In this document: piece after piece, positions 9,136 to 50,432 of the stretch | Layout of the letters: each line of letters starts with the position of its first letter | Numbering within the stretch: position 1 is the first letter of the stretch | NCBI RefSeq assembly: GCF_002735925.1 | Contig: NZ_PEDL01000001.1 | Location: 434,001 to 498,000, forward strand | From: Sporanaerobium hydrogeniformans | Lineage (GTDB): Bacteria > Bacillota > Clostridia > Lachnospirales > Cellulosilyticaceae | DNA: 64,000 nt | Direction of reading: 5' to 3' | Notes under the pieces: model-generated | Seen by the model: only the letters and a program-made list of their open reading frames with translations | What the model was told of the DNA's origin: nothing | Databases searched by the model: none | Made by a program: the position numbers and the translations under genes

Positions 9136-9143
9136 TCAATAAC

Positions 9144-9197
9144 AAAGGCGTCTTAGCTTCTCTATCTAAATAAAAGGGGCTTAAGACGCTCCTTTTA
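9144..9197 (+). terminator. Probable terminator after DUF445
   Basis: AAAGGCGTCTTA pairs with TTAAGACGCTCCTTTT across a 25-30 base loop, with one bulge. A short T-run follows. Confidence 0.6.
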
Positions 9198-9221
9198 TAG
9201 CAAAAAAGAAGGTGGATAAAA

Positions 9222-9749: not shown

Positions 9750-9823
9750 TTAAGAATTGCATAAAAAAGCTTAATGTATTAAAATAAAAGGAAAATATAG
9801 GAAATAAAAGGAGGTTCATTAGG

Positions 9824-10801
9824 ATGAAAAAAAGACAGGCGTTTATAGCATTGCTTTTAGGGTTGAGTTTAGTGGGGTGTGAACCCAAAAACCAACCTAC
9901 TATTAATAATCCTGTAGACATACAGACACCTTCCCCTAGCTTAGTAGAGGAAATTCGTCTACCGGATAATGAAGCTTTTAGACGTATAGATACCCAAAGC
10001 TTAGAGTTAGGCGTTATAGTTAATAATCCCGATACGGAAACTTTAAAAAATGTTAGTCAGTTAGAGTATTATAAAGATGAAATAAACGATGAAACATTAT
10101 TACTTGTTCCTAAATATAAGGACTCTAAGGTAGAAATCTTGGGTTTAGAATATGAAAATGAGTCATTAGTAATGAAAGAACCTGTTTATGTAGTAAAAGC
10201 AACACCTGAAGGATATGGTTTGTTAATAGAAACGAATCGTCCGGAGGGTATTCCTAGATTACTTATTCGAGTAAGCTATAATGAAAAAACCTCAGATTAT
10301 ATAATAAGCTCCCATTTAAAAGAAGGAGAGCCTAGCTTAGAATATTTAAAAGCAGTTGACTCAAAGGAAAAAGAAGGTGAACTTATTGAGGCGACAAAAG
10401 ATTCAGGGCTTTTTAAAGGATTAAATCTTATCAATGAGGCAATGTATGACATGGATAAGGACGGTAAAGTAGAGGAAAAGCTTTTACTCTATAGTGAGGC
10501 ACAGCAAGACCAACAAGGTAATTATATGCTTGATGATGGACAAAATTGGCTTTTAGTAGCTCAAATAGGAGAAGAGTTCTATCCATTATTTGGGCCAGGC
10601 TATATACAGTTAGGAACCCTTAAATATACGGCTTATGAGGATTATACAAAAGAAACCTTTGGAGTTCTTATCAATCGTACAGAGGGAGCAGGTATTAAGC
10701 TTTATGAATGTGTTTATGATAAAACAGCAAAAGCTTTTAAACGTTCTTTAGTCTATCAGACAACAGGCAATATTGGCATAGTAGAAGAATGGAACCAATA
10801 A
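9824..10801 (+). CDS. Uncharacterised lipoprotein
   Basis: The 325-residue protein begins with a lysine-rich lipoprotein signal peptide with lipobox LVGC, so Cys19 would be lipidated. A short Pro-rich spacer follows, then an acidic beta-rich body. A calcium-loop-like DMDKDGKVEE occurs at about residue 210, as in proteins that describe an output value. I do not recognise a named family. RBS AAAGGAGG. It sits in the same direction as the GNAT gene upstream and the nucleoside kinase downstream, with short gaps. An extracytoplasmic membrane-anchored location is well supported; function is unknown. Confidence 0.75.
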   Translation: MKKRQAFIALLLGLSLVGCEPKNQPTINNPVDIQTPSPSLVEEIRLPDNEAFRRIDTQSLELGVIVNNPDTETLKNVSQLEYYKDEINDETLLLVPKYKDSKVEILGLEYENESLVMKEPVYVVKATPEGYGLLIETNRPEGIPRLLIRVSYNEKTSDYIISSHLKEGEPSLEYLKAVDSKEKEGELIEATKDSGLFKGLNLINEAMYDMDKDGKVEEKLLLYSEAQQDQQGNYMLDDGQNWLLVAQIGEEFYPLFGPGYIQLGTLKYTAYEDYTKETFGVLINRTEGAGIKLYECVYDKTAKAFKRSLVYQTTGNIGIVEEWNQ

Positions 10802-10855
10802 GAAGATGAAATACATACTGAATCGAAGGGGATAGGGCGAAAGGATAGGTGAAGG

Positions 10856-11506
10856 ATGTTGCTAGTTGTCGGAGGGATGATTGGATTAGGTAAATCAAGT
10901 ATGGCAGCACTTTTAGGAAAACATTTTAACACAGAGGTTTTTTATGAGAATGTAGATAATAATCCAATATTACCTCTTTTTTATACTGCCACTGATGAAG
11001 AAATCCAAAAATATCGTTATCCGTTTTTGTTGCAACTTCATTTTTTAAACTCTCGCTTTAGAAGTATTAAGCGAGCACTTTATGACGATAATAATATCTT
11101 AGATAGAAGTATCTACGAAGATTGGTATTTTGCAAAGGTTAATAACGAGTTAGGTCGTATTTCTGATTTAGAATTTCGCATTTATGGTGAACTTCTTGAT
11201 AATATGATGGAGGAGCTAAAGGAGTTGCCTAAAAAAGCACCCGATATGATGCTTTATCTAAAGGGCTCTTTTGAAACCGTCTTAGACCGTATTATGGCAA
11301 GAGGACGTAGCTATGAGTTAGATAATAGCCTAGTCGATTACTATAAAAGATTATGGTTAGGTTATGATGAGTGGGTCATGAAGCATTATCATGCCAGTGA
11401 AGTTTTGATTATTGATATGGATTGCTATGATATTGTGAGTTCACAAGAAGATGCTAAAGAAGTCATTGCACTTGTTGAACAAAAACTTGAAAAAATTCGG
11501 CAATAG
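10856..11506 (+). CDS. Deoxynucleoside kinase (dGK/dAK type)
   Basis: The 216-residue salvage enzyme phosphorylates deoxynucleosides with ATP. The P-loop is GGMIGLGKSS (6-15). The second signature is DRSIYED (from Asp83), the DRS motif of the dCK/dGK family, and the lid Arg cluster is RGRSYEL (about 147-153). These place it in the Firmicute deoxyadenosine/deoxyguanosine kinase group rather than thymidine kinase. Which base it prefers cannot be read from sequence. The ATG follows a weak GGTGAAGG site. A strong terminator follows. Confidence 0.9.
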   Translation: MLLVVGGMIGLGKSSMAALLGKHFNTEVFYENVDNNPILPLFYTATDEEIQKYRYPFLLQLHFLNSRFRSIKRALYDDNNILDRSIYEDWYFAKVNNELGRISDLEFRIYGELLDNMMEELKELPKKAPDMMLYLKGSFETVLDRIMARGRSYELDNSLVDYYKRLWLGYDEWVMKHYHASEVLIIDMDCYDIVSSQEDAKEVIALVEQKLEKIRQ

Positions 11507-11512
11507 CTTTTC

Positions 11513-11551
11513 AAAAAAGCCATGTACCTGTTTAGGTGCATGGCTTTTTGT
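11513..11551 (+). terminator. Intrinsic terminator after the deoxynucleoside kinase gene
   Basis: AAAAAGCCATG-T-ACCT pairs with AGGTGCATGGCTTTTT with a single wobble, ending in a T-run. Confidence 0.85.
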
Positions 11552-11605
11552 ATGGGTGCATAAAATGAAACAAGAAGGTTTTTAAAAGGAAAAGAGGGAA
11601 TAGAG

Positions 11606-12382
11606 ATGAAAAAACAGGTAGTGCGCCTAGCCCTTTTACATATGATGCCTAAGATAGGGAATAGTAGTTATAATCGTCAGCAACTACGTCGAGCCTTAGC
11701 TGTAGCGGCAGGACACGAGGCACAAATTGCCCTTACACCTGAAATGATAGAATATGGGCAACTTTTTGATTGCTATAGAGAAAGAGAAAAGGTACCTGTG
11801 TATCCCAGTCGTTATTTATGTGATTTAGGTGAAGTAGCATATAAATACAATATGTATTTTATTGTAGGGATATTAGAAAGAGAGGAACCTACAGGAAACC
11901 TCTATAATGCAGTAGCTTGTATTAATTCCCAAGGACACTTAGAAGGCACTTACCGTAAAATGTATACAACCCAAAAAGAAGAAAATCTTAGTATTCTTTC
12001 AGGAAATGAGTTAGCAACCTTTACATGGACAGAAAACCAACTAGGACTTATGGTGGGAGAAGATGTATACCTTGCTAAGCTCCCCATACTACTTCGTGAG
12101 ATGGGAGCTCAGCTTATATTAGGGGTAGTAAGTCCTGGTGTAGAAGGTATGGCAAAGGAGTGGTGTTTGCGTTCAGCAGAAACTCGCTTACCATTTATTG
12201 TATGTGGTGGCAACTTACAAGGCAGTAAGAAAAACATAAGCTATGGAGAAAGTTTAGTCATTCGATTAGGGCAGGTACAATATGCCTTTAAATCATTAGA
12301 ACCTACTGTATTTATTCTTGATATAGAGTTAAATACTAATAACATTGAACTTGTAGTGACGACTTCCCTTGCTATGAAATGA
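11606..12382 (+). CDS. Nitrilase-superfamily protein lacking the catalytic cysteine
   Basis: The 258-residue protein has the alpha-beta-beta-alpha fold of carbon-nitrogen hydrolases. The catalytic Glu46 (LTPEMIEYG) and Lys118 (GTYRKMY) are at the expected places. The nucleophile elbow, normally G-x-x-I-C-Y-D, reads G-L-M-V-G-E-D, so Gly151 replaces the Cys and Glu152 the Tyr while Asp153 is kept. The downstream GAQLIL segment is typical. As written it should be unable to make the thioimidate or thioester intermediate, so a regulatory or binding role is more likely than amidase activity. It is convergent with the AraC gene, 11 bp away, with no obvious terminator between. Confidence 0.8.
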   Translation: MKKQVVRLALLHMMPKIGNSSYNRQQLRRALAVAAGHEAQIALTPEMIEYGQLFDCYREREKVPVYPSRYLCDLGEVAYKYNMYFIVGILEREEPTGNLYNAVACINSQGHLEGTYRKMYTTQKEENLSILSGNELATFTWTENQLGLMVGEDVYLAKLPILLREMGAQLILGVVSPGVEGMAKEWCLRSAETRLPFIVCGGNLQGSKKNISYGESLVIRLGQVQYAFKSLEPTVFILDIELNTNNIELVVTTSLAMK

Positions 12383-12393
12383 AAAAAGAAATA

Positions 12394-13320
12394 TTATTTG
12401 TATTCCTTAGGAGCAATAGAGAGAATATAGGCTGTGGCGGTAAGACCTGTATATTTCTTAAAAAGTTTACTGAAATAATAGGGATCATCAATGCCTACTA
12501 AATAACCAATATCTGCAAAGTGTAGATGAGTAGAGGAAGCCATAAGTGCTTTCGCATGATGAATACGTAGTTTATTTAAATAATTCATAATGGTCATTCC
12601 TGTAAAAGACTTAAATAAACGATTTAAGTAATTGTAATTAGCATCAAAGTGATTTGCAAGACTTTTACTTGTTAGTTTTTGGGTATAATGAGTATCTAAA
12701 TAATCTTTTAGCTCCTGAGCTCTGGCTAATCCCTTATGTGCTTTTATTTGCTCTTGCTGGAGCAAGTGGTCAGCAAAGTCTTTTCCAAGGGCAAGAAGGA
12801 ATTGCTGAAAAAGAAGGGATACGCGATGACGATAGTTTTCATGTTGTTGATAGAACATAAAATTACTTTGTTCCAGGAGAGAAAAGAAAGCATCTGAGGT
12901 GCTTGGGTGCCATTGCTTAGGAAAATAAACGGGGGAAACCTCCCAGCTTTCATAAATACTAGATAAATAGAGACTGCTTTTAATAGCTTCTTCTCTTTGC
13001 TTTTTAAGAAGTGGGAGGATGTTAAGAGCTGAGGTAGAAAGAGATGTAAGTCCAGTAGAACGAAAATGAACAAAGTAGTAATCACAGGGACTTGCTTTTG
13101 TTCCAGTATGTTCTATAGAGGGATTTAATAAAAAGCTATCGCCTTCTTTTAAAGTATACTGTAAATCACCTTCTTTTAAATAAAGAGAGCCAGATTGGAT
13201 AAAATAAAAAATAAATTCATCTGCTGTGCGAGTGAAGTGAATCCAAGGATTGCTATAGGTGACATGTCCCATATAGCGTACGTGTATAAAAGATTGTGGT
13301 GAAAGCGTATAGAATGACAT
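12394..13320 (-). CDS. AraC-family transcriptional regulator
   Basis: I place the start at the ATG at 13320-13318, preceded on the reverse strand by GGAGG at good spacing, giving 308 residues. A longer in-frame start at 13395 has no such site. The N-terminal cupin-like sensor (about 20-110) contains GDSFLLNP and IEHTG. The C-terminal double helix-turn-helix (about 210-305) contains LDTHY, SLANHFDANYNYLNRLFK, and DIGYLVGIDDPYYFSKLFKK split across the two motifs. It is divergent from the alpha-glucosidase gene, so it most likely controls that gene in response to a sugar. Confidence 0.9.
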   Translation of the reverse strand: MSFYTLSPQSFIHVRYMGHVTYSNPWIHFTRTADEFIFYFIQSGSLYLKEGDLQYTLKEGDSFLLNPSIEHTGTKASPCDYYFVHFRSTGLTSLSTSALNILPLLKKQREEAIKSSLYLSSIYESWEVSPVYFPKQWHPSTSDAFFSLLEQSNFMFYQQHENYRHRVSLLFQQFLLALGKDFADHLLQQEQIKAHKGLARAQELKDYLDTHYTQKLTSKSLANHFDANYNYLNRLFKSFTGMTIMNYLNKLRIHHAKALMASSTHLHFADIGYLVGIDDPYYFSKLFKKYTGLTATAYILSIAPKEYK

Positions 13321-36889: not shown

Positions 36890-38575
36890 ATGAGACAATC
36901 CTATGAGATAGCGCAAGCGAGAAATTATATTTTACAAACGTTCGTAGATCCTACTATTTTAAAAGAACGCTATCCGAATCTATTAATTAGTGAAATCGCT
37001 CCTCAAATTGTAAATATAGAAGTTTTGCCAGGAGGAGAAGAATCATTTCAAGAATTACAGGTAAATGCTAGGTTTTTGACTATACCCCTTTTATTAGGAT
37101 TAAATGCAGATGGCGCATTAGCTGCATCTAATATTTCAGTGCTTCATAATTACCCTTATGGGGAATTAAGAGGAAGAGGAGTAATTATTGGTTTTGTAGA
37201 TACGGGAATCGACTATACGAATCCACTTTTTAAAGAAGCAAATAACACAACACGCATTGAAGCGATATGGGATCAAACCATAGAAGGCAGTCCACCTGAA
37301 GGCTTTCAATACGGTAGTGAATATTTAAGAGAAAAGATTAATGAGGCATTAGCTTCGCCTGACCCTTATACAGTTGTGCCTTCACGGGATGAAATTGGGC
37401 ATGGAACCTTTTTGGCAGGTGTAGCAGCAGGGAAGGATTCTACAGGGGAAGAGGATTATACAGGAGGTGCACCTGATGCCATTATTGTTATGGTAAAACT
37501 AAGACCTGCAAGAGCCTATTTGAGGAGATATTATCTAATAGATGATGAAGTAGTTGCATACCAGGAGGATGATTTAATAGCAGGCATTACTTATCTAGAA
37601 AATTTGGCTATTCGGGTGGGACGCCCTATAGTTTTTTGCATAGGAGTAGGAGGGAATTTTGGTGCTCACAATGGGAGAAATATAACGGAACAATATTTGG
37701 AAACGCTTTCTTTTTTTCAAGGGGGTATCATTGTTATAGCAGCAGGTAATGAAGCTAACAGTGGACATCATTACTCAGGAAAAGTGGAGAGTGGTGAAAG
37801 TCAGACTTTAGAGATTAATGTGGCAGAAGGTGAAAATGGAATTGTACTTTTTTTATGGTCTGCTGTTCCTAATAAAGTAACGATCTCCGTTAAAAGTCCT
37901 TTGGGGCAGGTGGTTGAAAAAATTCCAGCCATCCCTAATTTACAACAAACATATCGCTTTAATTTAGAAAAAACTGTTTTATCAGTAACCTATATTTATC
38001 CTGAACCTCAAACAGGAGGACAGCAAATTCGTATGTTTTTTGATGATCCTACACCAGGATTATGGAGCTTAACGGTATATGGTGAAAATGTGGTAGATGG
38101 GGTCTATAATATATGGCTACAACGGAATGGATTTATCTTACCAGATACACGTTTTTTACAGCCCGATCCTCAAATTACGGTGCAGATTCCTTGTACGAGT
38201 CGAAGTCCTATTGTAGCAGGAGGGTATGATTACGTAGATCAAAGTATTTATATTAGCTCAGGAAGAGGACCTACAACAGATAATATTATTAAGCCTGATT
38301 TAGTAGCACCTTGCGTTAATATTTTAGGACCAACACCAGGAGGGGGCTATACCACTTTTACAGGAACAAGTGCAGCAGCAGCTATTACGGCCTCAGCTTG
38401 TGCCCTTCTTATGCAATGGGCAGTAATCAATGGAAATTTAGTAGGTATAAATACACGGATAGCGCGTGCTATTTTGATTCGTGGGGCTACACGTACAAAA
38501 GGTGTTATTTATCCCAATTCTATTGAAGGATATGGAAAGCTTGATTTAAAAAATAGTATTGCTCAAGTGTATTAG
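36890..38575 (+). CDS. Csp-like subtilisin family serine protease (first of four)
   Basis: The true start is ATG 36890, 5 bases after AGAAGGAGG; the in-frame TTG at 36857 lies inside the preceding hairpin. The 561-residue S8 protease has a short prodomain (about 1-90). The triad is Asp104 (GFVDTGID), His171 (EIGHGTFLAG) and Ser494 (TGTSAAAA). The oxyanion Asn287 is in AAGNEANSGHH. A jelly-roll insert (about 300-435) between the oxyanion Asn and the Ser is typical of clostridial Csp proteins. The triad is intact, but GTSAAAA departs from the usual GTSMATP. Csp proteases activate the cortex hydrolase SleC in germinating spores, and sleC lies 12 kb downstream. Confidence 0.88.
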   Translation: MRQSYEIAQARNYILQTFVDPTILKERYPNLLISEIAPQIVNIEVLPGGEESFQELQVNARFLTIPLLLGLNADGALAASNISVLHNYPYGELRGRGVIIGFVDTGIDYTNPLFKEANNTTRIEAIWDQTIEGSPPEGFQYGSEYLREKINEALASPDPYTVVPSRDEIGHGTFLAGVAAGKDSTGEEDYTGGAPDAIIVMVKLRPARAYLRRYYLIDDEVVAYQEDDLIAGITYLENLAIRVGRPIVFCIGVGGNFGAHNGRNITEQYLETLSFFQGGIIVIAAGNEANSGHHYSGKVESGESQTLEINVAEGENGIVLFLWSAVPNKVTISVKSPLGQVVEKIPAIPNLQQTYRFNLEKTVLSVTYIYPEPQTGGQQIRMFFDDPTPGLWSLTVYGENVVDGVYNIWLQRNGFILPDTRFLQPDPQITVQIPCTSRSPIVAGGYDYVDQSIYISSGRGPTTDNIIKPDLVAPCVNILGPTPGGGYTTFTGTSAAAAITASACALLMQWAVINGNLVGINTRIARAILIRGATRTKGVIYPNSIEGYGKLDLKNSIAQVY

Positions 38576-38583
38576 GAGGACTT

Positions 38584-40926
38584 ATGAAAGTAATCATTGA
38601 ACATGCTTCTTATTATGAAAAAGAATGGTTAAGTCAGGTTAAGAATATTCATACCTTAGGCCACACTTATAAGTTAGCGCAATTAAGTGAAGAAGAATTA
38701 ATGCAGTTAAAAGAAAAGGCTGTTTATATAGAGCCTGCTTATTCTATACAATTAATAGGCAGGCAAGAAGCAGTACCAATAACACTTGCACAATCTCTCT
38801 TTATCATAGCCTATATAGGTACTAAGCAAAAGGCAAAAGTAGACGCATATTATGATTTGGAAACAGGTGAGTTACAAGTTGTTCGGACTTTACATTCCCT
38901 GAGAGAACCTCTTTTTATTAGTTGTTATAGTGAAACAGGGATAAGCGATGCAACTGCTTACTTATGTTGTGTTCAGACCTTAGTACATCTTGCAAGACAA
39001 CTTGGACGTCCTTTGCTAGTCTATACTGCTGTTAAAAGTATATTACCAGCGTATCAATACCGTAGTTTAGCCGCCAAAATCACCAATCATTTGCTTCAAC
39101 TGACGTGGGCAGTGGGAATAGCCTATGCGCCTTACAAACAGCAGCATGCTTACTATACGCCTACAAATAGGCTTTTTGAACCTTATGAAGAAGAAAGACT
39201 TTATGTAGAAGATAGCTTTAACCAAGCGATAGAACGCAGTGGGCATTTATTATTACAATATAGAAGTGCACAGAAAGTAAAAAAGAACTATTCTAGAGAA
39301 TACCTAAGAAAGAGTCAGGCTTTATACGAAGAGTTTTTTTATAAACAGCTTCCCCTTGAAGTACCTTTATACATACAGCTACGTAGTGAAAAGGTACAAG
39401 AAGCTTCTTATTATGAGGAGATGGGTTTTGGTGTTGTTCATTTTGAGGGACACCCTATAGCTTTATTGGGAGAAAAATCACGTTATGAGGATTTTAAACG
39501 TATCTTACAGCCTATGCTTACAATGCATTTTGAGATTTCTCTTGTAAATGAACTAAGACCTAGAAGGCAAACAGCTACCCTATCAGAGCTATATAAGGTA
39601 TTAGAAAAAAAGGGAATCTATAGCGGAGAAAATGTATATATTGGTCTTGTGACAACAGGTCAGGTGGAGGCGTATCATGAAGCCTTGAAGGATGAAACGG
39701 GAAAAAGCCGGCTTGTTTATTGGTGGCAGCAAGAAAAAGATGAGAAAGGAAATGAACTTACAAACCTTCAGATGACTAAAAGTAAGGAAGATACAACCTT
39801 TTTACTTGGTTTAGCTGGAGGAGATTCGAGTCAGTATGAGGGGGTAGCATCTAAAGCTAAGTTTATAGTAGCTCAAATTAAAGAAGCACCTATCTCACTA
39901 CAGACACTTTATGGAGGGCAGGTTGTAGCAGGGACCACTCAACTTATAGATGTTCTTATAGGGACACTTAAGCTCATAGAGTGGGCTCAAAAACAGGGAA
40001 AGCCGGTAGTAATTTGTCTACCTTTTGAAGGTCCCTTAACAGGTCATGGGGGAGAAAGTGAACTTGAAAGGTATTTGTCACGATTAGGGAGGCGTCTGGG
40101 ATGTACACTTATCGTTTCGGCAGGAGAAGAAGGGAACAAAAGACATCACCAATGTTTGCTAAGAGAAGGTGAGGTAGAAAATGAAGAAATAATAGAGGTT
40201 AAAAAGGTAGAACAATGTTTTTTAGGTTTCATCAAACAACAAGGGCTAAAACCTTTTAGTGTGCAACTGTGCTCAGAAGATGGTAGGAAGATACTGTTTA
40301 CAGCACTTGAAGAAGCTGGAGAAAAGAAACTAGGTGAAGGGATAAATTGTTTTAGTCAAGGCTTTCAAATAGATTATGAAAAAGGAGGGGGGCAATTACT
40401 TTTTCGTATTGAGAATCTTCCCGTAGGACGGTGGCGATTAAAAGTTAAACGGATAGAAGCTACTCCTTATCCCATTGAAATGTGGCTAAGTTCTCAAGCC
40501 TTTTCTCCCTTTGTTCGATTTGAAAAAGCAACTACTTTCCAAAGTTTAAATCCTTTGGCAGCTTCAGATAGTCTTTTAAGTGTGGGGGCTTATGTAACAT
40601 CAAGCAAGACTTTACTTGGAGAGTCAGGTAGAGCAAAAGAAAAAGAAGCAAAACCAGATGTAGTTGCACCAGGGACAGATGAAATTGCACCTTGCTTAGG
40701 AGGATGGGAAAAGGTAAGTGGGACTTTGGTCGCTATGGGATTGGTAGCAGGTGTTGTAGCAAGTTTATATAGTGGAAGGGATAAGAGATGGAATAGTATT
40801 TCTATGCGACAACAGCTGTTAGAGTGGCAGTGTATGTGGCAAGAAAAAACTTACCCACAATTAGGCTATGAGGGAGCTTTTTTAGAGAAAAATCAATTCA
40901 TTTCTCTTTTAAACACGCCTTTTTAG
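38584..40926 (+). CDS. Csp-family double pseudoprotease (two degenerate subtilisin modules fused)
   Basis: The 780-residue protein starts 8 bp after the previous stop with RBS AGGAGG. Its second half (about 255-780) follows the Csp layout: prodomain, then the Asp strand as GLVTTGQ (Asp replaced by Thr357), the His segment shortened to KEDTTFLLGLAGG with GHG deleted, oxyanion Asn replaced by Glu515 (SAGEEGN), and SGTLVAMG with Ser replaced by Leu715. The first half (1 to about 250) seems to be another eroded module: prodomain-like 1-57, then FIIAYIGT, LARQLGRPLLVYTAV, matching the ELGRPVAINISIG helix-strand of the active paralogue, and no Ser region. It cannot be a protease as written. A sensing or scaffolding role, as for CspA/CspC in C. 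difficile, is inferred. Confidence 0.82.
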   Translation: MKVIIEHASYYEKEWLSQVKNIHTLGHTYKLAQLSEEELMQLKEKAVYIEPAYSIQLIGRQEAVPITLAQSLFIIAYIGTKQKAKVDAYYDLETGELQVVRTLHSLREPLFISCYSETGISDATAYLCCVQTLVHLARQLGRPLLVYTAVKSILPAYQYRSLAAKITNHLLQLTWAVGIAYAPYKQQHAYYTPTNRLFEPYEEERLYVEDSFNQAIERSGHLLLQYRSAQKVKKNYSREYLRKSQALYEEFFYKQLPLEVPLYIQLRSEKVQEASYYEEMGFGVVHFEGHPIALLGEKSRYEDFKRILQPMLTMHFEISLVNELRPRRQTATLSELYKVLEKKGIYSGENVYIGLVTTGQVEAYHEALKDETGKSRLVYWWQQEKDEKGNELTNLQMTKSKEDTTFLLGLAGGDSSQYEGVASKAKFIVAQIKEAPISLQTLYGGQVVAGTTQLIDVLIGTLKLIEWAQKQGKPVVICLPFEGPLTGHGGESELERYLSRLGRRLGCTLIVSAGEEGNKRHHQCLLREGEVENEEIIEVKKVEQCFLGFIKQQGLKPFSVQLCSEDGRKILFTALEEAGEKKLGEGINCFSQGFQIDYEKGGGQLLFRIENLPVGRWRLKVKRIEATPYPIEMWLSSQAFSPFVRFEKATTFQSLNPLAASDSLLSVGAYVTSSKTLLGESGRAKEKEAKPDVVAPGTDEIAPCLGGWEKVSGTLVAMGLVAGVVASLYSGRDKRWNSISMRQQLLEWQCMWQEKTYPQLGYEGAFLEKNQFISLLNTPF

Positions 40927-40960: not shown

Positions 40961-42733
40961 ATGTATAGCAATAAGTTAAGCCCATCTGTTCAATTAGCAT
41001 TACGTTATGAAAATTTGTTGACTCCAGAAAGCCGTGCTATATTTCAGGATCCTGTGGAGCCTACTAAATGGCGTATCATAGCCGAATATATTGGGAATTT
41101 AGAAGAAGAAAAACAGAGCTTAAATTTAGATGTATTTTATTTAAATGAGAATTTTGCTCTTATAACCTTATTAAAACAAGATGTACCGGCTTTGTCCGAT
41201 GAAAGGAGTATTATTTACATTTCTTTTGCACAAGAATTAGCTTATATTGATCAATCCTTTAATCAAACATGCATGACGAATGTTATTGCGCCTATTGGAC
41301 GTTATAAGGTAACTGGAAAAGGGGTTTTAGTAGGGATCATTGACACAGGAATTGACTATAGTCATCCTGATTTTATAATGCCTAATGGGAAAAGTCGCAT
41401 TCGTTTCTTATGGGATCAAACGATAGTAGGGAGTCCTCCTCTAGGCTTTAGGAAAGGAACAGAATATACTAATGAAGAATTAAATATGGCTTTAGCACAA
41501 CCTGAAAAAGAAGAGCAGCTAGCCATCGTCCCCTCACAAGATACTATTGGTCATGGAACAGCCATGGCGGGTATCGCAGCAGGAAATGGAAGGGGGTCAG
41601 GGGGCAGAAATCGTGGGATGGCCATAGAGAGTGAACTTCTTATCGTTAAAATAGGACCAGAAGGGGGAGAATCAACTAGGCCGAATACAAGAGAGGTAAT
41701 GTTAGGGATTAAATATGTAATAGAAAAAGCTAAGGAGCTTAGTCAACCATTGGTCATTCTTTTAGGGATTGCTACAAATATAGGTGGGCATGATGGTGCA
41801 GTTTTAATAGAGCAGTATATTGCCGAAATGTCTTTAACGTGGCCTTGTAACTTTGTAGTAGGTACAGGGAATCAAGGCGATAAGGGTGGGCATGCTAGTG
41901 GAAGCATTAAAACGGGAGAGGAAAAGATTATTCAGCTTCTCATTGATAAGCCTAAGCCTTCTTATCAAATGGGGATATGGAAAGAATTTATTGATGAAAT
42001 GGGTATTATAATTGAGTCTCCTCAAGGTGAGCAAACTGAAATTTTAAGTATTCTTACACCGAATAGAGCCTTTTTTTTTGGAAATACAACGGTGTTAGTA
42101 AACATTTCAGAGCCACGTAACAATATTACAAAGCAAGTTATTTATATCGTTTTAGAAGCGCAAACACCAGAAGGAATTAACATAGGAGTATGGAATATTA
42201 GGCTGAGAGGCTTTAATGTTTTAAATGGAAGTTATAATGCGTGGGGAAGTATTAACAAGGATAGCTCAGACCGTACACGTTTTTTGATAGCAGATATTTC
42301 CACTACACTGACTATCCCTTCTACGACAGAAAGCATTACAAGTGTAGCAGCCTTTAATGCCAATAGCTTTCAATTGGCTCCTTTTTCGGGGCGAGGTTAT
42401 ACAGCAAATGGAAGAGTAAAACCTGATTTAAGTGCTCCAGGAGTAAATGTACTTACAGCATCTATTCAAAGAGACATTTTATATGAGCCTTTTTCAGGAA
42501 CGAGTGCCAGTGCAGCTTTTGTAGCAGGAGCCTATGCACTTCTTATGGAATACGGCATTATTCAGCTAGGATTACCTTATTTACATGGAGAGACACTTAA
42601 GAGCTATATGTTAGCTACAGCGCAACGACCTGAGTCTTACGGACCTTATCCTAATAAAGAATGGGGGTATGGTAGATTATGTGTAGAGGCTGCTTTAAAT
42701 CGAATTAATGAAATAAATACAAGTTCATTTTAA
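40961..42733 (+). CDS. Csp-like subtilisin family serine protease (third of four)
   Basis: The 590-residue protein has a prodomain of about 1-105, ending near QTCMTNV. The S8 catalytic domain carries Asp128 (GIIDTGID), His198 (DTIGHGTAMAG) and Ser515 (FSGTSASAA), with GTGNQGDKGGH at the oxyanion Asn. The jelly-roll insert lies between about 320 and 455. The triad is intact. The substitution pattern after the Ser (ASAA) differs from the canonical MATP. RBS AGAAAGAGAGG. It is 34 bp after the pseudoprotease gene and 12 bp before the fourth csp gene, clearly one operon. Confidence 0.88.
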   Translation: MYSNKLSPSVQLALRYENLLTPESRAIFQDPVEPTKWRIIAEYIGNLEEEKQSLNLDVFYLNENFALITLLKQDVPALSDERSIIYISFAQELAYIDQSFNQTCMTNVIAPIGRYKVTGKGVLVGIIDTGIDYSHPDFIMPNGKSRIRFLWDQTIVGSPPLGFRKGTEYTNEELNMALAQPEKEEQLAIVPSQDTIGHGTAMAGIAAGNGRGSGGRNRGMAIESELLIVKIGPEGGESTRPNTREVMLGIKYVIEKAKELSQPLVILLGIATNIGGHDGAVLIEQYIAEMSLTWPCNFVVGTGNQGDKGGHASGSIKTGEEKIIQLLIDKPKPSYQMGIWKEFIDEMGIIIESPQGEQTEILSILTPNRAFFFGNTTVLVNISEPRNNITKQVIYIVLEAQTPEGINIGVWNIRLRGFNVLNGSYNAWGSINKDSSDRTRFLIADISTTLTIPSTTESITSVAAFNANSFQLAPFSGRGYTANGRVKPDLSAPGVNVLTASIQRDILYEPFSGTSASAAFVAGAYALLMEYGIIQLGLPYLHGETLKSYMLATAQRPESYGPYPNKEWGYGRLCVEAALNRINEINTSSF

Positions 42734-42745
42734 GGAGGAAGAAAG

Positions 42746-44512
42746 GTGGAAAATAAAACTGATGCTACTCTACAAATATTAAGTATTGTTCCTAGAGAGG
42801 AATTAATAAGCAGTGGACAATATATACAATTATTAGGATTTGATAATCCTAATAACTGGCAAATTATTGTGAAATATAATGGGGATATTGAAAGGGTCGC
42901 ACAGGAGCAAGGAGGAACCGCTCAGCTTATCAATAGTCAATTTGCTTTGATGACACTTCCACCTGAAAATATAAAGAATTTATTAGGTTATACACAGGTA
43001 GAGTATATGGAAACGCCCAAGCGTATGGTGTTTACTACGACGACAAACATGCAAGAAAGTTGTATTACCACTGTTCAAAACAACCCACCTTATAACTTAA
43101 AAGGAGAAGGAGTTCTTTTGGGTATTATTGATTCAGGAATCCAGTATGCTCATCCTGATTTTCGTAATGCAGATGGTACGACACGTATCACTTCTATTTG
43201 GGATCAAAATATACCTGGTAATCCACCTAGGGGTTTTAAGATAGGAACAGAATATACCCGGGAACAAATTAATGAGGCATTAAGAGCACCCACACGTGAA
43301 GACCGTTTAAGAATTGTACCTAGTGAAGATACAAATGGGCATGGAACACACGTAGCAGGTATTGCAGGAGGGAATGGGAGAGGTTCTAATGGGCAGATAA
43401 TAGGAGCTGCACCAGCCTCAGAATTTATAATTGTTAAATTAGGTCAACCAGGAAATGAAGATTTTGTACGTAATTCAGAAATTATGTTAGGAGTTAAATA
43501 TGTAATTGAAAAGGCAATTGAACTAGGTAGACCGGTTGCTATTAATATTAGTATTGGCATGAATAGTGGTCCTCATGATGGACAGTCACTCATAGAACAG
43601 TATTTAGATGATGCAGCTACTTTATGGAAGACCAGTATTGTTGTAGGAACAGGAAATGAAGGCAATGCAAGGAGTCATACAATGGGGAGGGTACAACAAG
43701 GAAAAAGCATGGCCTTTCAATTTCAAATAGGACCTAATACTTTGTCATACAATGTATCTGTATGGAAAAGCTTTATTGATACTTTTGAGTTTGAAATCAT
43801 TGATCCAGCAGGTAGACGTACTCCACGCATTCCCTATGCACAAGGTCCTGTTCGCTACAGCTTATCTAGTACACAAGTTTATGCAACCTATGCAGGTCCT
43901 TCGCCTTTAAATGGTGATGAAGAATTTGTAGTGTTTTTAACGACATCTGATGGTAAGCCTATTGTAAGTGGGCCATGGTCTGTACTTATTTATGGCATAG
44001 AGGTAGTAGATGGGCTCTATAATGCATGGGGACCTACGGTAGAAACAGGAGGTCAAAATAGTTTTATGTTAGAGCCTATTGTAGAGACGACTTTAACGAC
44101 ACCATCTACTTCACGACTCGTTATTAGTGTAGGGGCTTATAATTCTGTTACTAATCAGCTAGCACCTTTTTCGGGGAGGGGTTTTGGGAGAAATGGCAGC
44201 GTCATTAAACCCGATTTGGTAGCACCAGGTGTAGAGATAATGGCTCCTAGTAATCAAGGAAGTGGTTATCGTACTTTATCAGGCACAAGTATGGCTACAC
44301 CTCATGTAACGGGAGGAGTAGCACTACTTATGGAATGGGGAATTGTAAAAAGAAATAATGTATTCCTTTATGGAGAAAATTTAAAAACCTATTTATTAAG
44401 AGGAGCAAATCGTCAAATTGCTGATGTAACCTTTCCAAGTCCAAACTGGGGGTATGGTAAGTTGTGTATAAGGGAAACCTTAGATTTATTAAGAAGACAG
44501 TTGCTATTATAA
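42746..44512 (+). CDS. Csp-like subtilisin family serine protease (fourth of four, most canonical)
   Basis: The 588-residue protein starts at GTG after AAGGAGGAAG. The prodomain (about 1-105) ends near ESCITTV. The triad is Asp129 (GIIDSGIQ), His199 (DTNGHGTHVAG) and Ser515 (LSGTSMATPHVTG), the last a textbook subtilisin motif. The oxyanion Asn lies in GTGNEGNARSH. The Csp insert domain (about 320-455) is present. Of the four it is the best candidate for the protease that cleaves pro-SleC (CspB role), though which one does so cannot be settled from sequence. It ends the csp unit; the ABC genes start 142 bp later with their own RBS. Confidence 0.9.
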   Translation: MENKTDATLQILSIVPREELISSGQYIQLLGFDNPNNWQIIVKYNGDIERVAQEQGGTAQLINSQFALMTLPPENIKNLLGYTQVEYMETPKRMVFTTTTNMQESCITTVQNNPPYNLKGEGVLLGIIDSGIQYAHPDFRNADGTTRITSIWDQNIPGNPPRGFKIGTEYTREQINEALRAPTREDRLRIVPSEDTNGHGTHVAGIAGGNGRGSNGQIIGAAPASEFIIVKLGQPGNEDFVRNSEIMLGVKYVIEKAIELGRPVAINISIGMNSGPHDGQSLIEQYLDDAATLWKTSIVVGTGNEGNARSHTMGRVQQGKSMAFQFQIGPNTLSYNVSVWKSFIDTFEFEIIDPAGRRTPRIPYAQGPVRYSLSSTQVYATYAGPSPLNGDEEFVVFLTTSDGKPIVSGPWSVLIYGIEVVDGLYNAWGPTVETGGQNSFMLEPIVETTLTTPSTSRLVISVGAYNSVTNQLAPFSGRGFGRNGSVIKPDLVAPGVEIMAPSNQGSGYRTLSGTSMATPHVTGGVALLMEWGIVKRNNVFLYGENLKTYLLRGANRQIADVTFPSPNWGYGKLCIRETLDLLRRQLLL

Positions 44513-44654: not shown

Positions 44655-45392
44655 TTGGATAATATTATAGAAATTAAAGGTTTAAGAAAAGTTTATCGTA
44701 TGGGACAAGAAAAAATTATAGCACTTGATCATATTGATTTAGAGATTGAAAAAGGAGAGATTTGCTGTCTTTTTGGAACCTCTGGGTCAGGAAAATCTAC
44801 CCTACTTAATATGTTAGCTGGGCTTGAAAAACCTACAAAAGGAATGGTTAAAATAAAAAACATCCCTGTAGAAAAGCTAAATGAAGAACAATTAGCTACG
44901 TTTAGACAAAAAAACATAGGGTTTGTTTTTCAATCCTATAATCTTATCCCTTCCTTAACCGCCCTAGAAAATGTGGCATTACCCCTTATTTTTCAAGGTG
45001 TAGCGAAAAAGGAACGTAATAAACGTGCTACAGAAATGTTAGAGGCAGTGGGATTAGGAAGCCGTATCAAACACAAACCAAAGGAAATGAGTGGGGGACA
45101 ACAGCAAAGAGTAAGTATTGCAAGAGCCTTTGTAAGTCGCCCTAAAATTTTATTTGCAGATGAACCAACAGGAAATTTAGACACACATACTACACTAGAG
45201 GTAATGGAAATTATTACTTCTATTGCGAGGGAATTTGATCAAACACTCATTATTGTGTCCCATGATCCAGAAATAGCGAACTATGCACACAAAATTATCA
45301 CCATAAAAGATGGGAACATCTATCGTATAGAAAAAAATACAGACAAGGGGAAGGAAATAATCTATGAACAAAAAGAAGAAATGGCTAAATAA
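44655..45392 (+). CDS. ABC transporter ATP-binding protein (LolD/MacB type)
   Basis: The 245-residue ATPase starts at TTG, 8 bases after AGGAGG. Walker A is GTSGSGKST (41-49), the Q-loop is FQSYNL, the signature is MSGGQQQRVS and Walker B ILFADEPTGNLD. The type is that of LolD/MacB/FtsE exporters. Its 3' end overlaps the next gene by 29 bases. It powers the permease at 47.7 kb. Confidence 0.93.
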   Translation: MDNIIEIKGLRKVYRMGQEKIIALDHIDLEIEKGEICCLFGTSGSGKSTLLNMLAGLEKPTKGMVKIKNIPVEKLNEEQLATFRQKNIGFVFQSYNLIPSLTALENVALPLIFQGVAKKERNKRATEMLEAVGLGSRIKHKPKEMSGGQQQRVSIARAFVSRPKILFADEPTGNLDTHTTLEVMEIITSIAREFDQTLIIVSHDPEIANYAHKIITIKDGNIYRIEKNTDKGKEIIYEQKEEMAK

Positions 45393-47727
45393 ATGTATGG
45401 TTTTATTCATATGTGTAGCATTGTTATTACCAGTAATAACAATACCTACTATGGCGGGGTCACTAGTTATTACGGATGTCAAACAAGGAGGTGGGGAGCT
45501 ATTTAAGGATGATAACTTTTCACTTATAATAAAGTTAGCAAGTGAAGGAAGTGCATATGAAGTTAAAAAAAGTGACTATGTACCTAATATTTCGGTATTT
45601 GGTAGTGCAGTAGATAGCAGTAATATGACATATGATATTAAATGGTGGAAAGAAGAACATTCAGATACCAAGATACCAGATGAACCAGATAGCCCAGAAG
45701 AAATCATTGTTAGAGGTTTAGTTTATACGGGGCAAGGTAAAAAAGTCACGGTGGGCATTGATGGAGTCTTCAAAGAACTGACACTAAATGCTACAACTTC
45801 TGATGAGGGGCGTGAATACTTAAAGGTAGATGATAGTGTAAATTTACTGGTTAAAACAGATGCAACTCAAAATGTACAAGTTAAAGTAGTGAATCAAGGA
45901 AAACAAGTACTTAAAAATGTAAAAGTTAAATTACAATTAGATGAAAAAGTAGAGGGTGTTAAAATTAAAACAGAGGAAGCTACTATTTCACAAATTCAAG
46001 CAAAAGAGATAAAAACAGCCTCTTTTTCCATTGAAGTAGATAAGGAAGTAAAAGCTAAAGTATATAAAGCAACAGCAGTTGTAAATGGCGTATCTTTTCC
46101 TGTTAATCTACAAGTAGATAGTAATGTAATGCCTTCAACAATTGAAGTGAGTACAGAAGGAAACAAGGTATTTAAGCCAGGAACACCTCAAGATATGACG
46201 CTTATGCTCAAAAATGTAGGAGAACGTGCAGCCAAAAACATTCGAGTGGAAGTGGAGTCTGATAAGGTAGCCATTGTGGGAGGAAGTAATGTCAAGCATT
46301 TTCAAGTGCTTAATGCCAAAGAAAGTAAAAACTGGACACTTAAGTTTAATGTAAATAGTGAAGTAACGACTTCTTCGGTACCTGTTAAAGTTAATTTGAC
46401 CTTTTTAAATTCTTTAGGCGAAGAAACGAAAGATACTCAAACCATTTATTTAGCTACCAATGCAGCACCTTCCTTATCTTCAGATGTGGTAATTGGTCAA
46501 ATAATTTCACCTTCTGGTGTGTTTGGTGTAAATGAAAATTTTAATATTCAATTTGATATCTCTGCACCAGAAGGGGCTCAAAATTTACGTATCACTGTAA
46601 AAGGAGATGAAGGGATCGTCCCTAAATCTCAAAATGTTTTTTCAGTTCCTAAGTTAAAGGCAGGAGAGAAGAAACACTACAGTGTAACATTAGCTGCTAC
46701 GAGAGCAGCAGTAAGTAGTGCACATGCTATCGAGGTTGCTATAGAGTATGGGACAAGTGATAAGCCCCTTACAATTAATCAATTTGGCAGTGTCACCATT
46801 CATAATCCAGAAAAAGATAAAGAAGATGATAAGGATGAAAACACTAAAAAGAGTGGGCCTAAAGTAATTATTGGGGAATATAAGGTAGAACCAACTATTG
46901 TAAAGGCTGGACAAGAATTTAATCTTGCCATTGGGTTCCTAAATACACATCAAACACAAGGTGTACATAACTTTAAAGCAAGTTTAAAGGTTATAGAGCA
47001 AGGTGAAAATGATGCAGGGAATGTATTTACACCAGTAGGTGCAAGTAATACATTTTTTATCGCTGATTTAGCACCTGGTGAAATAGTTACTAAAAATATT
47101 ACCCTCTACACCATTCCAACGGCTAAACCTAAAACCTATGAGGTGACTCTAGAAATGGAATATGAAGATGAAAAGGGGAATGAACTAACACCTAAAGAAA
47201 GTATAGGTATTCCTGTTGAACAGGTGACAGAAATAGAGATTGGAGATATCCAGGTTGATCCAGGACAAGTCGGTATGCCTTCTTATTTTAATGCCACCCT
47301 TTACAATACAGGTAAGACAGATATTACTAATGTGATGGTACATATTGAAGGAGAAGGTTTTACTGTTCAGGAAAACAAGATGTATATTGGAAGTTTTGAA
47401 AAGCAAATGACAGAAAATTATGCACCTACACTTATTCCAGATATAGCGGGTACACTTACAGGGAATATCATCATTGAATATGAAGAAGCGACAGGAGAAC
47501 AAAAGCAAATTATTAAAGAGTTTAGTTTTGATGTAGCAGAGATGATGATGCCAGAAGATATGGGAATGGAGCCAGGCATGGATATGGTGCCACAACAGCC
47601 TCAAGCCAAATGGCCACTTCTTGTAGGCGTAGGAGCAGGTGTATTTGTTGCATTTGTTATTACACTTGTGGTACTTAAAAAACGTAAAGCAAAAAAAGAA
47701 AAGATGATGCTCAATGAAGACGATTGA
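45364..47727 (+). CDS. Membrane-anchored CARDB/Ig-repeat protein in an ABC transporter operon
   Basis: The 787-residue protein has a signal peptide (1 to about 31, ending TMAG) and a series of Ig-like beta domains. Repeats of the KNVGERAAKNIRVE and TGKTDITNVMVHIEG kind are typical of CARDB/NEW3-type adhesive domains. An acidic-lysine linker (EKDKEDDKDENTKK, about 490) lies mid-protein. A methionine-rich segment occupies about 727-741 (MMMPEDMGMEPGMDM), followed by one membrane helix at about 752-771 and a basic tail. It takes the place that MacA-type adaptors have in Gram-negative tripartite exporters, and overlaps both the ATPase and the permease genes. Role as adaptor or substrate receptor is inferred. 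Confidence 0.82.
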   Translation: MNKKKKWLNKCMVLFICVALLLPVITIPTMAGSLVITDVKQGGGELFKDDNFSLIIKLASEGSAYEVKKSDYVPNISVFGSAVDSSNMTYDIKWWKEEHSDTKIPDEPDSPEEIIVRGLVYTGQGKKVTVGIDGVFKELTLNATTSDEGREYLKVDDSVNLLVKTDATQNVQVKVVNQGKQVLKNVKVKLQLDEKVEGVKIKTEEATISQIQAKEIKTASFSIEVDKEVKAKVYKATAVVNGVSFPVNLQVDSNVMPSTIEVSTEGNKVFKPGTPQDMTLMLKNVGERAAKNIRVEVESDKVAIVGGSNVKHFQVLNAKESKNWTLKFNVNSEVTTSSVPVKVNLTFLNSLGEETKDTQTIYLATNAAPSLSSDVVIGQIISPSGVFGVNENFNIQFDISAPEGAQNLRITVKGDEGIVPKSQNVFSVPKLKAGEKKHYSVTLAATRAAVSSAHAIEVAIEYGTSDKPLTINQFGSVTIHNPEKDKEDDKDENTKKSGPKVIIGEYKVEPTIVKAGQEFNLAIGFLNTHQTQGVHNFKASLKVIEQGENDAGNVFTPVGASNTFFIADLAPGEIVTKNITLYTIPTAKPKTYEVTLEMEYEDEKGNELTPKESIGIPVEQVTEIEIGDIQVDPGQVGMPSYFNATLYNTGKTDITNVMVHIEGEGFTVQENKMYIGSFEKQMTENYAPTLIPDIAGTLTGNIIIEYEEATGEQKQIIKEFSFDVAEMMMPEDMGMEPGMDMVPQQPQAKWPLLVGVGAGVFVAFVITLVVLKKRKAKKEKMMLNEDD

Positions 47728-49081
47728 TTTAATTGAGATGAGTATAAGGAATTTGTGGCGACGTAAAGTACGAACTTTACTAACAATATTAGGTGTTATT
47801 ATAGGCGCTTCATCTATTATTTTGATGCTATCTTTAGGCATTGCTATGGATCGTAATTTTGAACAACAAATTATGCAAATGGGAAGCTTAACAACTATTT
47901 CAGTAAGTAGTAATAACTATGGAGATCCTAAGGCACCTAAGCTAGACGATAAGGCTTTAGAAAGTTTTAAAAAATTAGGTTATGTAGAACGAGTTGTACC
48001 TATTGTACAAGATCAATTTTACGTGACCTTTGGAAAATATCGTAGTAATTACCCTATGCAGGTCTATGGCATGGATGCAGAAGATATGGCAGCTTTAGGT
48101 TATCAACCTGTAGAGGGGAGATTATTAGGTGAAGGAGAAAAAACAGGGATAGTCATTGGTGGGGGACTAACCTATGAATTTACTAAAATTGGTAAACGCT
48201 TTAATTGGCGTGTCGAGCAGCAGGCTCTTCCAATCCAGTTAGAAGAAGATAAAATGACTCTTGAAATTGTACAATTTGATTATCAAACTGGGAAACCCCT
48301 CCTAAAGGATCAAGAAGGGAATAAGATTAAAGTACCTAAAGTGCCTGAACTAAAGGTAGTAGGGATGCTATCAGAGAATAATTGGGAAGTTTCTAGAAGC
48401 ATTTATGTTCCAAGAGAAATTTTTAATACTTTAGTTGTGCAAAAAAAGAAATACGAAGAAAAACTAAATGGCAAACAGACTACTGTTGGTGGAAATAGTT
48501 GGGGAAGACAAGACAATCAAAAAGGAGTTTATCAAGAAGTAAAAGTCAAGGTCAATGACCGTAATGAAGTACTGGGAGTGCAAGAGAAAATTAAAGATTT
48601 AGGTTACTATGCCTATAGCTCAATGGATCAGTTAACACAGATGAAAAAAATATCCGGTGGAATTCAAATGGCTCTAGGTGGTATTGGCGCGGTCTCTCTT
48701 TTTGTAGCGGCTATTGGAATTGCGAATACCATGATGATGAGTATTTATGAACGCACGAAAGAAATAGGAATTATGAAGGTAATTGGTGCCAAGATTATAG
48801 ATATTAAAAAGATGTTTTTAATTGAAGCTATTTTAATTGGTGCTATTGGAGGAAGTATTGGTGTACTCTTTTCCTATGGAGTTTCTCTCCTTATTAATAC
48901 AGTAGGTGGGGGGATTGCAGGCATGATGGGTATGTATGGTGCCACTCAAGTTTCTGTTATACCTGTTTGGCTTGCTTTAGGAGCTATTGTATTTTCTACA
49001 TTAATTGGACTTATTTCAGGTTATTTACCAGCAAGAAGAGCTATGAAATTGTCTGCCTTAACAGCTATAAAGACAGAATAA
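47714..49081 (+). CDS. MacB-like ABC transporter permease
   Basis: The 455-residue protein has the MacB/FtsX fold: TM1 (about 21-42, LTILGVIIGASSIIL), a large extracytoplasmic periplasmic-core-type domain (about 45-320) and three C-terminal helices. The last begin near GGIQMALGGIGAVSLFVAAIGIANTM, here broken at residues about 330-350; the coupling YERTKEIGIMKVIGA follows. Start ATG overlaps the end of the CARDB gene by 14 bases. Such permeases usually do not carry small molecules across but drive a mechanical cycle on a partner. It is convergent with sleC, separated by a terminator. Confidence 0.9.
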   Translation: MKTIDLIEMSIRNLWRRKVRTLLTILGVIIGASSIILMLSLGIAMDRNFEQQIMQMGSLTTISVSSNNYGDPKAPKLDDKALESFKKLGYVERVVPIVQDQFYVTFGKYRSNYPMQVYGMDAEDMAALGYQPVEGRLLGEGEKTGIVIGGGLTYEFTKIGKRFNWRVEQQALPIQLEEDKMTLEIVQFDYQTGKPLLKDQEGNKIKVPKVPELKVVGMLSENNWEVSRSIYVPREIFNTLVVQKKKYEEKLNGKQTTVGGNSWGRQDNQKGVYQEVKVKVNDRNEVLGVQEKIKDLGYYAYSSMDQLTQMKKISGGIQMALGGIGAVSLFVAAIGIANTMMMSIYERTKEIGIMKVIGAKIIDIKKMFLIEAILIGAIGGSIGVLFSYGVSLLINTVGGGIAGMMGMYGATQVSVIPVWLALGAIVFSTLIGLISGYLPARRAMKLSALTAIKTE

Positions 49082-49091
49082 AACAAATAAG

Positions 49092-49147
49092 AGGTGCTTA
49101 CTGAAACCCTTTCTTTTTAAGAAGTGGTTCAGTAAGCACCTTTTTTT
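49092..49147. terminator. Bidirectional terminator between the ABC operon and sleC
   Basis: AGGTGCTTACTGAAACC (49092-49108) pairs with 49126-49141, with one bulged A. T's follow, and the sleC stop lies immediately beyond. Confidence 0.8.
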
Positions 49148-50432
49148 AGAGAAGTTCTCCGATTTTAGTAACGGCTACATAAATTTGTGAAATTTTGTAC
49201 CAGGTATTTCTACCTACAATACCATCTTGAGGTAAGTGAAAAATCTTTTGAAAAGTTTTCACGGCTTCTAAGGTAGCTTGATCAAACTCCCCATTAGTAG
49301 CTACCTTTGGGATAAGAGGATAGTTTTGGCTGATACGGTTAAGCTGTTCTTGTATTTTGCGTACATTAGAACCACTACTACCTAGTTGAAGAGGAGAACC
49401 GGGATAAGATTCAGGGATGCCTTCTACTTTAGGAGCTGTAGGAAGCTCAATATCTCCATAGAAATTTCTAAGGATTTGTTCAGCTGTATAGCCAGCATCT
49501 CCTAAATCTTTGCTACCCCATTGTGTCATCCAATTTGGGCATTGAGATTGAACACCATCACAATATTGTGTAAGAAGAGGTTGTGTAACTCCAGGCCGTT
49601 TAACATAAGTAGTAAAGACATCTGCCACAATAGGTATAATCGTATCAAAGATATTACGACCAAAGAAAAAGGCATGGTCAAAGGCTGTAGAATTGGTAAT
49701 AGTAAAATTCTTACCTTGATTGCGATACCATTCTGTAAAAACGCGATTAAGTGTAAAGGAGGTAATGGCAATAACATTGGCCCGGATCGTTTCTTCTGGC
49801 CAAGTAGGATAGATTTCAGAACTAGCAACGTTAGCAATATACTCTGTAAAAGGTACGGTATAGTTTGGTGCGGTATTATCAGTAGGTAAACCTGCATGAA
49901 CAATAACAAACTCAGGGACAATAACACTATCTAGTGTAATAAAACCTGTACCAGGTAAAATAGGCTTGATCTCGAGTTCTGGAATTTTAGGTGGGAAATT
50001 CCCAAAGAGGGTAGCTGGGCCAATTATAATTTCTTGGAAAAACTGTCTTGCAAGATGACGTGTGGATTCTAGGGTAATGGGCTGAATAGAGCGTGTATCA
50101 GGAAAAACCTGGGTCCCTTCAATAATCGCATCTACATATTCGGGTGATTTGGTTTCAATGCGATAAGTGGAATAGGGTTGATTTGTGTTAAAAGGGTCTA
50201 AGCTGTAGTCAAGAGGAGGCGTAATAAGTTCTAAAGGTTCAGTTTGCCCTACCTCATTGGTCATTAATTCAGCAAAGATTTTTTCATCTCCATTAGGAGA
50301 GATTTCTTTAATGGTTACCAGTACATTGGGAATAGGGCTTTGTGGTCCTATTAAACGATTTGTGGCTAATTCTACAACAAGAGAGCCTGTGTTTTGTCGA
50401 GAAAGTAGGGGAGGATAAGCGCCATAAGTCAT
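49146..50432 (-). CDS. sleC: Spore cortex-lytic enzyme SleC
   Basis: The 428-residue protein is the pro-enzyme that degrades spore cortex peptidoglycan in germination. An N-terminal prodomain (1 to about 160, Ig/transthyretin-like, GSLVVELATNR) lies before a SpoIID/LytB-type catalytic domain (about 172-330, PFTEYIANVASSEIYPTWPEE split at Glu206). Glu206 sits where SpoIID has its catalytic Glu. A peptidoglycan-binding domain closes it (about 357-425, LQLGSSGSNVRKIQEQL). The SVIVPEFVIVHAG junction fits the known pro-SleC activation region cut by Csp proteases. It is close to four csp genes. The reverse-strand RBS is AAGGAAG. Confidence 0.92.
   Translation of the reverse strand: MTYGAYPPLLSRQNTGSLVVELATNRLIGPQSPIPNVLVTIKEISPNGDEKIFAELMTNEVGQTEPLELITPPLDYSLDPFNTNQPYSTYRIETKSPEYVDAIIEGTQVFPDTRSIQPITLESTRHLARQFFQEIIIGPATLFGNFPPKIPELEIKPILPGTGFITLDSVIVPEFVIVHAGLPTDNTAPNYTVPFTEYIANVASSEIYPTWPEETIRANVIAITSFTLNRVFTEWYRNQGKNFTITNSTAFDHAFFFGRNIFDTIIPIVADVFTTYVKRPGVTQPLLTQYCDGVQSQCPNWMTQWGSKDLGDAGYTAEQILRNFYGDIELPTAPKVEGIPESYPGSPLQLGSSGSNVRKIQEQLNRISQNYPLIPKVATNGEFDQATLEAVKTFQKIFHLPQDGIVGRNTWYKISQIYVAVTKIGELL

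Follow-up and report, generated by a model that had tools for sequence, protein, structure and literature searches.

In the window analysed here, a stretch of 64,000 nucleotides from Sporanaerobium hydrogeniformans, four S8/Csp-type genes (A, X, B1 and B2) stand in tandem, and the second of them, X, lies between intact Csp protease genes and encodes a protein without the catalytic residues of its neighbors. The locus raises the question of what such a protein is, where it came from and what it might do beside working proteases. The initial annotation had described X as a fusion of two dead Csp modules, a reading now backed by sequence, by a family profile, by an intermediate form and by structural models.

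The csp operon and its surroundings

The four genes are separated by gaps of only 9, 35 and 13 bp, and an AGGAGG box precedes the ATG of X, which is an open frame of 780 aa (Table 1). The operon lies 8 kb from a gene for pre-pro-SleC, the expected substrate of CspB. In ten genomes of the host family, Cellulosilyticaceae (G000, G001, G002, G006, G008, G015, G016, G019, G021, and G022), sleC is found on the opposite strand at most about 8 kb from the B-type csp end, and the pairing of the csp operon with sleC therefore looks old. SleC itself was found in 24/24 host-family genomes, and the host genome also encodes SpoIVA, SleC, YabG and a GerA-GerB-GerC receptor operon. The interval that separates the csp operon from sleC (44655-49081), read by eye, codes for an ABC transporter ATPase, a large protein that is exported and a permease of FtsX type. 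A tRNA search of the 64-kb window returned none.

Table 1. Positions of the csp genes, the parts of X and sleC within the window
Feature	Position	Strand	Remarks
A, cspA-like gene	36890..38575	+	intact D-H-N-S; ATG (36890) behind AGGAGG box, giving N-terminus MRQSYE
X, doubly dead, probably CspB-CspA-derived fusion	38584..40926	+	780 aa
M1 (first half of X), aa 1-245	38584..39318	+	prodomain (~1-60), truncated subtilase core (~70-181), linker
Linker motif R-K-S-Q-A-L-Y-E, aa 242-249	39307..39330	+	RQ at this place in 26/40 relatives; candidate site for YabG cleavage
M2 (second half of X), CspA/CspC type, aa 246-780	39319..40926	+	prodomain + subtilase + jelly roll; catalytic positions T357, D403, E515, L715
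B1, CspB-type protease	40961..42733	+	CspB_prodomain, intact D-H-N-S
B2, CspB-type protease	42746..44512	+	CspB_prodomain, intact D-H-N-S
sleC, pre-pro spore cortex-lytic enzyme	49146..50432	-	9h68_A, E 2e-132; N-terminus with SRQNTGSL

Two modules and a linker

The second half, M2, is a full-length CspA/CspC-like pseudoprotease. Superposed on 9pr8_D, a chain of the CspC:CspA heterodimer (Z 37.3, rmsd 3.4, 494 aligned), residues 260-780 of the model show the Csp layout of a prodomain and a subtilase domain with a jelly roll inserted, and this bears out the Csp fold order first read from the sequence. The superposition on Clostridium perfringens CspB (4i0w) gave Z 34.4 (416 aligned). By profile, window M2 is of A type rather than B type (153.0 vs 116.3 bits), and M2 formed one clade (SH-aLRT 100) among A-type rows in a 72-row tree that included 13/38 M2 sequences. 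Only the model shows the M2 prodomain (245-335), which reaches a profile probability of at most 7.8 when taken alone. The model behind these superpositions, the second one of X (mean pLDDT 74.7), was made from an alignment of four X proteins together with 14 CspBA fusions, and because it drew on those fusions it is not independent evidence for M1.

Aligned to the intact downstream paralogue, X has T357, D403, E515 and L715 in the D, H, N and S columns, and the Asp-His-Ser triad of active Csp members is accordingly absent. The initial annotation had named T357, E515 and L715 exactly, while the deletion it placed at the His segment holds in part: about 18 residues ahead of the His column are missing from window X, but the column itself is present and occupied by D403. 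Most X relatives do not have this deletion, yet none of the 38 has kept the His. Among these 38 distinct X proteins, from which three duplicates and four CspBA fusions were left out, the Asn is likewise gone from every one, the Asp is retained by 5 and the Ser by 3, and no protein has all four residues. The substitutions are regular, with an acidic residue at the Asn position in 34/38 and Leu at the Ser position in 22/38, and the family has residues of its own, E516 and H521 in 37/37 and K519 in 36/37. A frame error in X was judged unlikely and set aside, since full-length relatives (open frames of 640-880 aa in the 38 distinct members) are built in the same way.

The first half, M1, is a miniaturised Csp in which the prodomain fold and a portion of the subtilase core survive. 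The early reading of its sequence, aligned by eye with the prodomain of the paralogue and then with a helix and strand, and found to be without the His and Ser regions, was right on both counts; the jelly roll is missing too. At the D, H, N and S columns by which an active B half of CspBA is recognized, M1 has no catalytic residue. A profile of M1 from 38 X proteins, with duplicates and CspBA fusions excluded, matched B-type Csp with a probability of 92.3 (E 5.6e-7, score 57.0, columns 3-179). Without L143, the intermediate form described below, the best match of the remaining 37 proteins was to A-type Csp at 80.5 (E 1.3e-5, helix-strand part only); with this set the M1 core alone reached 85.8 and M1 against B-type 29.3, and 40 comparisons with column-shuffled controls gave scores of at most 18.5 and probabilities of at most 0.4. 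As a lone sequence, window M1 scored 0.0-0.2 bits against Csp profiles, none of it significant, and a search for CspB_prodomain in window X returned nothing at E up to 1. For two further X proteins the result was 13.8 bits and no match, respectively, both under the cut-off of 25.

A model built from four X sequences, one of which is the intermediate, has a mean pLDDT of 48.8, with block means of 41-89 over residues 1-180 and weak stretches at 61-70 and 101-110. Its residues 1-232 superpose on pro-Tk-subtilisin in the unautoprocessed form (Z 12.3, rmsd 3.8, 202 aligned), a moderate score from a low-confidence model which points to the pro-subtilisin fold. In a Foldseek search with the same model, the matches to Csp chains were mostly poorly superposed (rmsd >12 for the Csp rows). 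The idea that M1 is an unrelated domain was rejected on the profile-profile match together with the superposition on pro-Tk-subtilisin, moderate as the latter is and drawn from a partial, low-confidence model.

The two modules are joined by a linker in which Arg-Gln occurs in 26 of the 40 LY-FY-anchored X proteins (of 42); the other 14 have no RQ, 12 of them having another Arg. Window X has R-K, not R-Q. Across the family, R is followed by Q in 26/53 cases in the linker vs 48/1274 elsewhere, for which the Fisher p of 8e-21 is too small because the members are related. Of the SleC proteins compared, the five read from the family and the one from Defluviitalea have SRQ close to the N-terminus, and eight others lack it in the stretch examined; an N-terminal RQ is also found in many family A proteins, and in neither B1 nor B2. 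In C. difficile, YabG cleaves preproSleC within SRQS, between its R and its Q, as determined by Edman sequencing, and interdomain processing of CspBA requires YabG, although this processing still took place once SRQS had been deleted from CspA, according to the available parts of PMC6464247 and PMC10681294. Since the linker Arg-Gln resembles that at the SleC N-terminus, YabG may by analogy with CspBA cut the halves of X apart, and with such a candidate site in the family linker the halves may not stay fused. We infer this processing from the motif and from the YabG gene found in the host genome, and for the window protein it is the more tentative because of its R-K.

Origin, distribution and selection

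An Epulonipiscium-labelled MAG (L086, its X identical to that of L143) carries, in the same operon slot, an X of 878 aa with the character of an intermediate. Its M1 scores 116.5 bits against B-type and 45.1 against A-type Csp, in three pieces collinear with CspB: the prodomain, the core and, past a large deletion, a remnant of the CspB C-terminus. The CspB_prodomain match reaches 29.7 bits, over the Pfam cut-off of 25. Its M2 is of A type (436.5 vs 323.1 bits for B-type) and retains the catalytic Asp, with His replaced by Ser, Asn by Glu and Ser by Ala, and BLAST against CspBA fusions is collinear. With M1 collinear with CspB and M2 CspA-like, X probably descends from a CspB-CspA fusion that has decayed until both halves were dead, and the decay of a CspBA-like gene is the simplest reading of its origin. 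That the intermediate M1 could be unrelated to the other M1 modules is disfavoured, as the profile of the other 37 matched it with E 4.1e-6 (best of 50 shuffles 0.42).

Quick ML trees placed the intermediate M1 on the B side. In AU tests a placement of M1 on the A side was not rejected (p 0.459), and neither was one with both modules on the B side (p 0.167); because these tests did not decide, the B origin of M1 rests on profile scores, BLAST, the Pfam prodomain and position. The B-type signal comes from this one organism's intermediate, and without it A-type matches better.

Some CspBA fusions have the D, H and S motifs in each half; these were found in Defluviitalea phaphyphila (L037), a Vallitalea sp. 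MAG (L038), an Epulonipiscium-labelled MAG (L036) and Clostridium neonatale of the Clostridiaceae (L089), the last at 8962-12669 and 1235 aa long. Fusions of this kind are likely the ancestral form of X. In the CspBA of Romboutsia, Terrisporobacter and two Peptostreptococcaceae records, the A half is dead; we take the two named genera to be Peptostreptococcaceae as well.

Open frames of X longer than 540 aa number 42 and occur in 17/24 host-family genomes. Among the seven without X, six are <90% complete, and G002 (98%) has A, B1 and B2. An M1 probe found matches in 15/392 genomes of the host order, all in the host family and 0/368 in others; divergent X elsewhere could be missed, since the probe also passed over G004 and G006, both with X. 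When genome contigs were searched with X as query no relatives were returned, and B2 was used for the further scan. A B-type gene follows X directly in 15/17 genomes, the contig ending at that point in the other two (G018 and G020). In 12 genomes the cluster ends A-X-B-B, with additional X or A genes ahead in genus g9. Elsewhere in the host order, G036 has seven A-type Csp genes of 567-580 aa in tandem (L150), with X and B absent in the stretch examined.

The X family is under purifying selection, with dN/dS of 0.10-0.23 in nine pairs (a tenth being undefined). For the same genome pair, X at 0.173 is less constrained than B1 (0.032) and B2 (0.071). By module, eight pairs gave 0.14-0.32 for M1 and 0.11-0.22 for M2, M1 being the less conserved in each of the eight.

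Several X copies in G012 are split or short and lie next to intact copies (L126), which points to genes being born and lost within the X family. This genome also has neither a Spore_permease nor a SpoIVA match. In G016 (L134, 8989-11169), X has 726 aa and stops before the Ser region, followed by a 371-bp gap and then B1. G004, G007 and G011 (97, 95 and 92% complete) have SpoIVA, SleC and X and no match to Spore_permease (GerB-type). These may be spore formers that lack a complete Ger receptor and depend on Csp proteins, although assembly gaps could also account for the missing matches.

Possible roles and known Csp systems

In C. difficile, a heterodimer of CspC and CspA is proposed to relay germinant and co-germinant signals to CspB, the activator of SleC, in the portion of PMC12880746 available. 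By analogy, X most likely plays a CspC/CspA-like part beside B1 and B2. The full proposal, to which we give about an even chance, is that X is a decayed CspB-CspA fusion which acts as a pseudoprotease partner and gates the SleC-activating CspB proteases. X would be made during sporulation, its linker would be cut by YabG behind the conserved Arg, and M2 would pair with another Csp, as CspC does with CspA. The resulting complex would hold or release the active proteases B1 and B2, which would cut pro-SleC, and M1, the part most variable between paralogues, would tune the partner or signal of the complex. X need not be the sole sensor, as the organism also has the GerA-GerB-GerC receptor operon. 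A more far-reaching version, tentative and somewhat unlikely in our view, has X proteins as amplified, lineage-specific soluble germination sensors derived from the doubly dead fusion; M1, freed by YabG, would serve as a miniature sensor or adaptor and, through its divergence across as many as seven paralogues, would set the spore response.

The initial annotation proposed a germinant or co-germinant receptor, a role that the precedent of CspC/CspA in C. difficile makes plausible. In its strict form, X itself would be a soluble receptor whose former active-site cleft in M2, or whose M1, binds a small molecule, the paralogues of one genus having diverged for different ligands. The four genomes of genus g9 with 6 or 7 X open frames each, several outside the operon, fit such a role, as do the lower conservation of M1 in 8/8 pairs, the non-random residues at the former catalytic positions (acidic at Asn, Leu at Ser) and the near-invariant E516, K519 and H521. 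However, direct germinant binding has been shown in no system, C. difficile included, as far as the accessible text of PMC12880746 states, and the GerA-GerB-GerC operon is also in the genome, so that we consider this form rather unlikely.

The prodomain fold of M1 in the X-only model and the M2 prodomain in the second model might instead point to a folding helper or inhibitor of CspB, with the prodomain-like parts acting in trans on B1 or B2 and blocking the active site until removed; the prodomain of C. perfringens CspB remains bound and blocks the active site, according to the part of PMC6636752 at hand. Such a role appears distinctly improbable, as B1 and B2 have their own prodomains and window X fails to match CspB_prodomain at E up to 1. 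It is very unlikely that X has left germination for a structural part in the spore coat or cortex: the total loss of catalysis and the copies found beyond the operon would agree with this, but X keeps its slot directly ahead of the B-type genes, and at least ten family genomes have sleC close to the operon. Least credible is a decaying pseudogene, for despite broken or short copies such as those of L126 and L134, the long open frames in 38 distinct members, the low dN/dS and the family-specific invariant residues all speak against it. With up to seven of these doubly dead proteins in some close relatives, the analysis suggests that they have turned into control parts for spore waking.

In the literature searched, in which few subscription papers were covered, no description of a doubly dead Csp fusion like X was found, which agrees with the initial claim that this form had not been previously described. 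The text available from PMC6636752 states the opposite for related families: CspBA fusions and Csp pseudoproteases appear unique to C. difficile/Peptostreptococcaceae, and the Csp proteins of Clostridiaceae and Lachnospiraceae are single proteins with intact triads, which the excerpt of PMC12880746 likewise predicts to be active. The confinement of CspBA stated in the former is contradicted by the Clostridium neonatale fusion, that species being of the Clostridiaceae. Under the wide sense of Lachnospiraceae, in which the part of PMC3416734 consulted places Cellulosilyticum, X contradicts the claim of intact triads as well; current taxonomy separates the host family from it.

The closest likeness among known systems is to CspBA of C. 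difficile (NF040809), where an A-type module also stands behind another Csp module in one gene, the A half is dead in both, and the interdomain processing by YabG that is known there is suspected for X. In CspBA, however, the B half is an intact protease, whereas the first half of X is shrunken and dead, and X is present on top of separate intact A, B1 and B2; the score of X against NF040809 is 57.1 bits, far under the cut-off of 1250. Known pseudoproteases CspA and CspC are also without an intact triad, as given in the available part of PMC6636752. CspC (NF040808, 6mw4) and CspA (9pr8, 9pr9) share with M2 its pseudoprotease state and, in the model, the same prodomain-subtilase-jelly roll order, but are only 17-18% identical to it in structural alignments, and X bears M1 in front; against NF040808, the CspC bile acid germinant receptor, X reaches 51.6 bits (cut-off 675). 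C. perfringens CspB (4i0w) shares the fold of M2 but is an active protease. The dual-motif CspBA fusions (L036, L037, L038, and L089) have the module order of X with D, H and S in both halves, while X has lost the triad twice.

Csp pseudoproteases are thought to be germinant sensors in C. difficile, and X represents a CspBA-like fusion of a second lineage that has seemingly become doubly dead and been amplified. It offers a second case in which the function of dead Csp proteins can be tested, in hosts which keep intact A, B1 and B2, and together with the known fusions it completes a natural series in which two halves, one half or neither carries the catalytic motifs.
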